A program made the position numbers and the translations under genes. 64,000 nt of DNA from Sphingosinicella sp. YJ22 (GTDB taxonomy: Bacteria > Pseudomonadota > Alphaproteobacteria > Sphingomonadales > Sphingomonadaceae), in contig NZ_JAANPA010000008.1 in assembly GCF_011320075.1 (NCBI RefSeq), forward strand, positions 1 through 64,000, read 5' to 3'. This document shows positions 45,388 to 47,212 of this stretch, one piece after another (the first letter of the stretch is position 1; every line of letters begins with the position of its first letter). A model generated the notes under the pieces. That model was not told the DNA's origin, searched no databases, and saw only the letters and a list, made by a program, of their open reading frames with translations.

Positions 45388-45413
45388 GGCGCCCACCTAG
45401 GCAAGTGGGCGCC
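45388..45413 (-). terminator. Rho-independent terminator of the peroxidase gene
   Basis: Perfect 9-bp stem GGCGCCCAC / GTGGGCGCC with loop of eight, followed on the minus strand by a CTTTT tract, six bases after the peroxidase stop. Confidence 0.75.
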
Positions 45414-45418
45414 CGTAG

Positions 45419-47056
45419 TCAACCCGCAGGCGTGGGCATCACCGGCTTGCGAACCTGGAAGCCGACCTTGGCCGGATTCTGTATCCCGGTGTTGCACACG
45501 ATGATGTCGGCCAGGGTGCGATTCTGCTGGATGATCTCCAGCCCTTCCTTGGAGAAGGTGTCCTCGCAATAGACCGCCTTGGCGAGCAGCGGGTTGGTCA
45601 GCGCCTGGGTGAAGGCGTCGTTGGCGACCATCGTGACGAGCAGCTCGCCCATCATCGAATCCTCGTCATAGCCTTCGGCGAACAGGCCGACGAACCATTC
45701 GAGCCGGTCGATGTCGCCGTACAGCGCCTCGAGCTTGCCGGCGAGCGCGCTGTCCCCGGTCAGTGCCTGGAACGAGGTCTTGGGCTTGAGGCCGTAATAT
45801 TTGCGATAGGCATTGTAGCTCGGCAGCCGGCAGGCGCGCGCCATGTCCATGCTGAGCCGCTTCACCTCGAGCAGGAAATCGGCGGTGTTGCCGATGCCGA
45901 TCTTGCCGGCATATTGGCGGCTGGCGTCGTCGAGCAGGCGGTCGAGACCGACCTCGACCAGCAGCTTGTTGGCCCGCATCAGGTCCCTGCCGTGATGCTC
46001 CTCGATTGTGCCGTCCTCGCGGGTCACCCCGAATCGGTCCGGGATGAGGTCGTGCCAGCGGTACAGAAGCGCGAATTCGACGGCCATCCAGTTGGTCCGG
46101 TACCAGCGCTCGCGCTCGGCCATCCCCGGCACCGCCTCGATCTTGATGTCGATCGGCGCGATGTGGACGATATAGTCGCTGATCACGACGTTGAGCAGCT
46201 CGACGATCACGACGTTGCGCGCAGTCTGGAACACGCGCTCGTCGTCCCAATCGGGATGCGCCGCCTCGATGATCCCCGCGACGCGATTGTGCTCGCGGAC
46301 GAACAGGGTGTTCATGATCGAATTGCCGAGCGTCGAGCTGCCATGCTCGAGCCCGACCGCGAAGGCATGGAGTTTCTGTTCGTCGTTCCACGCGCGGGTC
46401 GGGTCGGGGGGATTGTAGACCCGGTCGAAATTGGCTCTCGTGTAGAGCGTGTCATAGGCGTCGATCAGCCCGACCGTCCCGTCCGCCTTCCTCTCGAACA
46501 GAGCGGGCGGATATTCCTCGCCACCGATGACCTGGGTGCGCAGGCGCCCGCGGCGGCCTGAGTCTTCACTCTTCTCGCGCAGGATCTGGGTCTGCGCCTC
46601 GGTCATCCCGTAGATCGAGCACAGGTCGATCTCGTGGTTGCTCTCATTCTCCTGGAAATGGCGGTCCTTGGTCGGATCCTCCCACTTGGTCCTGAGGAAG
46701 CTGTCGACGAACCATTGCGCGAAGAAGGGGAACAGCAGGCTGGTGTCGTTCGCCGGCCGAAATTCCTTGCGCGCGAACAGCGCAAGCACGTCCTCCATCG
46801 CCGGCTTCTTCGGCGAGACGTCGTCCTTGGGCACCGGCAGGTGCCGGCCCGAATAGCGGCGGTCGGTGAGCCCGCGCCAGGTGACATAGTCGGCCGCCAT
46901 CGACACCGGCCGCGGCCGCGGCGGCGCCGCATAGCCGTAGCGGTTGATGGTCTTCTTGCTGACCCAGCGGCGGATCGGCGTCGTATTGTTGACGATGTTG
47001 ATCAGAACCGGCCGCACCGGCCGCGGAATCCAGGACAAAGGTCCGCCGTTCGCCAT
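45419..47056 (-). CDS. Cyclooxygenase-like haem peroxidase with altered distal site
   Basis: A 545-residue protein of the animal haem-peroxidase superfamily, closest by eye to prostaglandin H synthases (COX-1/2). The catalytic tyrosine and proximal haem ligand are present in Y332-R-W-H335, equal to COX Tyr385/His388 (LYHWH). Also matching are VDL.. IYG (EIDLCSIYG), [16 protein letters not shown] and [12 protein letters not shown]. The segment FAQWFVD (112-118) aligns without gaps to COX FAQHFTH; the distal His207 position is Asp118. There is no EGF domain or signal peptide. An oxygenase or fatty-acid dioxygenase role, without normal peroxidase turnover, is inference. ATG 47056 has GGGAGG upstream; an upstream start at 47083 is less likely. 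Confidence 0.88.
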
Positions 47057-47212
47057 GACACCCTCCCAAGTCGAGTCGAACAATTGGAGCTTCTTCTACT
47101 TACCTCTTTTGGCAGCTCCGTGGGAGCGTCTATTCGCTCGCCGCGAAAATGATTGGGTTTGCTCTATGCTACCGGCCGGCGCCCAGCCCACTCGCCCTGT
47201 CGCGTCATGGCC

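Follow-up and report, generated by a model that had tools for sequence, protein, structure and literature searches.

The window, i.e., the whole 64,000-nucleotide stretch of Sphingosinicella sp. YJ22 DNA that we analyzed, carries a gene for a cyclooxygenase (COX)-like haem protein on its reverse strand (Table 1). Its translation runs through 545 amino acids with no internal stop and matched the peroxidase-cyclooxygenase superfamily model PF03098 at 145.7 bits (cutoff, 25); no NCBIfam family model was matched by the protein. The Shine-Dalgarno-like sequence ahead of the ATG favors that start over an in-frame TTG at 47083. Downstream of the gene, a hairpin is a plausible terminator, and the gene that follows on this strand presumably encodes ribosomal protein L36. 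A terminator of its own had been assigned to the gene in a preliminary description of this DNA. The hairpin and its T-rich tail are indeed visible, but a terminator scan returned 3 terminator-like sites against 1.6 in shuffled sequences, which is hardly above chance.

Table 1. Features of the COX-like gene and its flanks, in window coordinates
Feature	Position	Strand	Basis
COX-like haem protein CDS, 545 aa	45419..47056	-	translation, homology, fold
Shine-Dalgarno-like GGGAGG	47062..47067	-	5 nt 5' of the ATG, read from the sequence
Asp118 codon (GAC), position of COX distal His207	46703..46705	-	alignment; Asp in 41/41 clade members
His238 codon (CAT), position of COX Val291	46343..46345	-	alignment; Arg in 26/41, His in 12/41
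Tyr332 codon, position of COX radical Tyr385	46061..46063	-	alignment; 41/41
His335 codon, proximal haem ligand, position of COX His388	46052..46054	-	alignment; 40/41
Terminator-like hairpin, arms 45388-45395/45406-45413, T-rich tail	45388..45413	-	downstream of the COX-like gene, sequence

The closest PDB sequences identified with phmmer were COX-2 and COX-1 (E values of 1.5e-64 to 1.1e-60, with COX-2 entry 3krk at 1.5e-64). The alignment was gap free over the distal stretch, where COX reads FFAQHFTHQFF, and over the block from residue 231 through LLYRWH. A 24-row profile that included the window protein gave an identical register (E value of 1.1e-100), and this agreement between the single-sequence and profile alignments ruled out a shifted alignment concealing a distal His. 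The predicted structure (mean pLDDT, 86.9; pTM, 0.90) superposed on COX-2 with a Z score of 42 and an rmsd of 2.0 A over 486 residues, spanning COX residues 85 to 583, and the peroxidases and plant alpha-dioxygenases listed in the fold comparison reached Z scores of 25 to 30. The 545-amino-acid protein is a full-length COX homologue. The structural alignment begins at COX residue 85, which we take to lie beyond the EGF part, and the stretch containing the later membrane-binding helices is retained. A viral structure library yielded three matches at an E value of 0.001 or better (13 to 20% identity), including a giant-virus haem peroxidase and an alpha-dioxygenase.

Residues were mapped onto COX-1 with a numbering offset anchored on the presumed place of Tyr385, which is consistent with the L531F residue of 3krk. 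On the distal side, Q203, H207, and V291 of COX-1 correspond to Q114, D118, and H238, respectively. Further equivalents are Y295 (Y348), I302 (Y355), Y332 (Y385), W334 (W387), and H335 (H388), followed toward the C terminus by F455 (Y504), V477 (G526), and A481 (S530). COX R120 pairs with Y40 in a weakly aligned stretch, and Arg39 lies one residue off, so this position is unsure. The preliminary description had claimed a gap-free fit to COX at both haem faces, conservation of the radical Tyr and the proximal His, replacement of the distal His by Asp118, and absence of the EGF region. All four claims were borne out.

Relatives were gathered into a clade set of 41 distinct members, the window protein included. 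The sources were 23 relatives from named genomes, 6 near-full-length members from named plasmids, 1 member from a viral contig, and 10 distinct members obtained by whole-profile genome searches. Left out of the counts were L001, L004, and L038 (the window itself), L028 (a near-copy of L029), L037 (a duplicate of L014), and the distant superfamily members L002, L003, L036, and L049 to L054. The viral copies L067 to L075 stand outside the 41, and alignment A1 was made without L024 and L028. Seven of the 13 plasmid matches were taken (H2, H5, H6, H7, H9, H12, and H13), and H1, H3, H4, H8, H10, and H11 were left out. The genome contig scan used six peptide patterns, among them FPFFAQWF, and some of the set may owe its inclusion to this motif. 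The whole-profile searches and the plasmid tblastn search involved no motif selection. The profile itself was made from Asp-bearing rows, and the 16 distinct clade members added by these searches all carry Asp at position 118.

Across the whole set, Asp fills the column of residue 118 in every member, and the possibility of a quirk or error of one gene is thereby ruled out. Conservation of the Asp within a clade, a point that the preliminary description had left to a homologue search, was thus confirmed. The columns of Tyr332, Arg333, and Trp334 and the counterpart of Tyr348 are each invariant as well (41/41), and His335 is present in all members except L015, which carries Ser. In this copy (L015:4941-6506), YRWS replaces YRWH, with loss of the proximal haem ligand, and position 238 is also Ser.

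According to the record titles, hosts of the clade include Alphaproteobacteria, Gammaproteobacteria, Actinomycetota, Cyanobacteriota, and Myxococcota, with several metagenome-assembled genomes (MAGs). With the own genome counted, the genus yielded clade members in 1 of 26 genomes, the family in 7 of 199, and the class in 3 of 385. Among 398 genomes of the phylum, 4 had clade members (own genome counted) and 6 had distant superfamily members alone, with E values near 1e-18. The closest relative of the window protein, L040, belongs to the same family and shares 61% identity, and its adjoining genes differ from those in the window. This patchy distribution and the differing neighbors would fit horizontal spread. 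One Pelagibius MAG (PL25a_bin.83) contains two distinct members, L009 and L011, of the His-bearing subclade described below.

Relatives were also found in viral sequences. Nine IMG/VR contigs of up to 52 kb carry a COX-like dioxygenase (best segment, 83 to 100% identical), and the motif FAQWFTDS is present in all nine of these loci (L067 to L075). The dioxygenase gene at L029:4938-6626 (near-copy, L028) lies among head, tail-terminator, and tail genes as assigned with PHROGs. A tblastn search of 50,697 GenBank phages gave no match at an E value of 1e-3.

Asp118 is probably not the only distal-side position at which the window protein departs from COX. In the column of COX Val291, the 41 members carry Arg (26), His (12), Ser (1, L015), Thr (1, L018), or Asn (1, L035). 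The 12 His-bearing members, among them the window protein, form one clade in a quick tree (SH-aLRT support of 93, or 95 for the 11 members without the long-branched L046, the placing of which is unsure because the tree is quick), and a single change suffices to explain His at this position. Outside the clade, the same column holds Arg in L002 and L036 and Asn or Pro in L049 to L054. The Val291 position is described as near the distal His207, and its conserved Arg in the dioxygenases (DOXs) as one that "may merit investigation" (PMC13049297); a catalytic distal Arg is described as a typical residue of the peroxidase-cyclooxygenase superfamily (PMC4420034). From the alignments, the His238-bearing branch probably has both an Asp and a His on the distal side of the haem. 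Another distal-side His, which the preliminary description had named as counting against its reading, may thus be present in part as His238, and the shifted alignment named with it was not found. Among the papers listed by the literature searches, none dealt with His at the Val291 position, which does not prove that there is none.

Genes adjoining some relatives offer clues about the chemistry. We scanned the neighbors at 42 loci, a number that includes a P450 locus from the own genome as well as a few repeats of regions already present. Catalase-related genes adjoin the dioxygenase in L017 (just downstream), L030, L033, and L035, and in L063 such a gene lies 1.4 to 1.9 kb away on the opposite strand. 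A P450 gene is located directly 5' of the dioxygenase on a Sinorhizobium medicae plasmid (L031:6616-9533) and on a Rhizobium etli plasmid (L032:6610-9512), the latter scoring 20.7 bits, just below the Pfam cutoff. Fusions of a dioxygenase with a P450 have been described in fungi (PMC13049297), and the two plasmid pairs appear to resemble a split version of them. The genes near these relatives point to fatty-acid hydroperoxides and to a possible role in hydroperoxide handling.

At most of the 42 loci, no catalase-related or P450 partner gene was found, and both catalase-related and rhizobial-type P450 genes were absent from the flanks fetched for the subclade of the window protein, in which two contigs are short. 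Among window open reading frames of at least 80 amino acids, none matched a catalase-related protein or a rhizobial-type P450 (phmmer; E value of 1e-3). The own genome (given as 99.99% complete) has one P450, located elsewhere, and had no match to the catalase model PF00199, a weak negative because 3 of the 5 catalase-related neighbors also escape detection with this model.

We propose, at a probability of roughly two in three, that the window protein is a haem fatty-acid dioxygenase of the bacterial COX-like, 10S-DOX type and not a prostaglandin-type COX. As far as found, the Nostoc punctiforme linoleate 10S-dioxygenase is the one characterized member of this type, and Tyr radical chemistry with a hydroperoxide product is inferred from this homologue. 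In the account of that enzyme (PMC13049297), it has 542 amino acids, reads F143-TDSF where COX has F205-THQF, keeps Tyr385, His388, and Tyr348, carries Phe at Tyr504 and Ala at Ser530, and makes 10S-hydroperoxides of oleate and linoleate, the linoleate product being acted on by a catalase-related lyase encoded by a separate gene. The clade member L017 (Anabaena lutea), also of 542 amino acids, is identical to the Nostoc enzyme at 10 of 10 checked published positions. The window protein shares 37% identity with L017 and falls in a separate subclade; this placement, His238 at the conserved Arg, and Ile302 at Tyr355 speak against the 10S-DOX assignment, and so does the failure to find catalase-related or rhizobial-type P450 genes in the window and in the fetched subclade flanks. 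The fatty-acid dioxygenase named as one option in the preliminary description agrees with the residues and clade of the Nostoc enzyme, and no support was found for the isomerase named beside it.

Bacterial cyclooxygenases were still termed putative in 2015 (PMC4420034). For the window protein, prostaglandin chemistry is unlikely, given that it lacks counterparts of Tyr355 and Ser530 and that Arg120 is paired with Tyr40, with Arg39 one residue off. On the features tested, a prostaglandin-type COX was rejected.

COX depends on a peroxidase step for its tyrosyl radical, and the textbook residue for this step is the distal His. In the proposed mechanism, a hydroperoxide would enter the distal pocket above a b-haem ligated by His335. 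The proton of the peroxide would be taken by Asp118 as the main base, aided by Gln114 and, in this branch, by His238 where Arg is usual, and the O-O bond would break. The oxidized haem would then produce a radical on Tyr332, which would abstract an allylic or bis-allylic hydrogen from an unsaturated C16 to C20 fatty acid, followed by addition of O2. The fatty-acid hydroperoxide released would prime further turnovers, and other hydroperoxides could serve as well. A more specific proposal, that a branch of single origin remade its distal pocket with Asp for His and His for Arg and that this Asp-His pair serves to activate peroxide and to trigger the tyrosyl radical within a COX fold, is tentative, and we regard it as possible rather than probable.

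The preliminary description had instead expected an enzyme without the distal His to be a poor peroxidase, with the Tyr radical supplied by another oxidant or partner. The Asp at the His207 position speaks for this reading, which we nevertheless consider unlikely. B-class dye-decolorizing peroxidases have an unrelated fold and serve as an analogy of mechanism only. In one such enzyme, the distal Asp is reported to deprotonate H2O2, and removal of the distal Arg to collapse the pocket (PMC6153280); a distal Asp alone is thus no defect, and poor peroxidase activity does not follow from it. In addition, His238 offers a further distal candidate, and the Nostoc enzyme, which carries Asp at the same place, is reported to be active as a dioxygenase (PMC13049297).

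Slightly less likely again is a genuine peroxidase acting on a substrate other than a lipid, in which the COX fold would be reused with Asp and His as an acid-base pair. The failure to find a lipid-hydroperoxide partner gene near the window gene and in the subclade flanks agrees with it, as does His238 where two distant superfamily members carry Arg, but the Asn or Pro of the other six means that Arg is not universal outside the clade. The counterparts of the radical Tyr, Trp387, and Tyr348 are invariant, as oxygenase chemistry expects, and the COX alignment starts in the membrane-side helices, both of which argue against such a peroxidase. A decayed or inactive copy is very improbable: the loss of the proximal His in L015 indicates that decay may occur in the clade, and the gene is rare among relatives (within the genus, in the window's own genome alone), but the frame is intact with a Shine-Dalgarno-like sequence, all catalytic columns fit, and identity to intact Pelagibius and Kiloniellaceae copies is 59 to 61%.

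A fatty-acid dioxygenase of this kind belongs to a clade that, across several phyla, has kept the COX scaffold with a distal Asp and that holds Arg or His as natural variants at a second pocket position. These variants are ready-made enzymes for asking to what extent the priming of the radical depends on the identity of the distal residues, and they bear on which oxylipins bacteria make. The distal-His loss, the headline of the preliminary description, is not special to this protein; it is clade-wide and had already been noted for the characterized Nostoc 10S-DOX (PMC13049297). The new point is the second pocket change, i.e., the Asp/His pocket, and alongside it the phage-borne and P450-paired relatives are fresh.

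Several known systems provide points of comparison. B-class dye-decolorizing peroxidases resemble the window protein in having a distal Asp, which serves there, together with an Arg, in peroxide activation (PMC6153280). The Pseudomonas "10S-DOX" PA2077, for which CXXCH haem motifs and a di-haem cytochrome c peroxidase subfamily are reported (PMC4496055), shares the name but is of a different family, and a link to it was rejected. Plant alpha-dioxygenases share the superfamily and Tyr-radical fatty-acid dioxygenation (PMC13049297) but are further off than COX in fold (Z scores of 27 to 28) and also more distant in sequence. Animal COX (PGHS-1/2) shares the fold and the counterparts of Tyr385, Trp387, His388, Tyr348, and Gln203, whereas the window protein has Asp at the distal His207 and is without Tyr355, Ser530 (the aspirin site), and the EGF part. 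Relative to the Nostoc 10S-DOX, the window protein has His238 for the Arg at the Val291 position and Val477 for Ile483, no catalase-related gene was found in the window, and Ile302 stands at COX Tyr355, a position that is Tyr in the Anabaena protein L017, used here as a stand-in. In common with that enzyme, it has a length of about 540 amino acids, a COX fold that includes the span of the later membrane-binding helices, the motif FxDSF with Asp for His207 (FVDSF in the window protein) with Y332 and H335 kept, and F455, A481, and Y295 as matches to its Phe (Tyr504), Ala (Ser530), and Tyr348.
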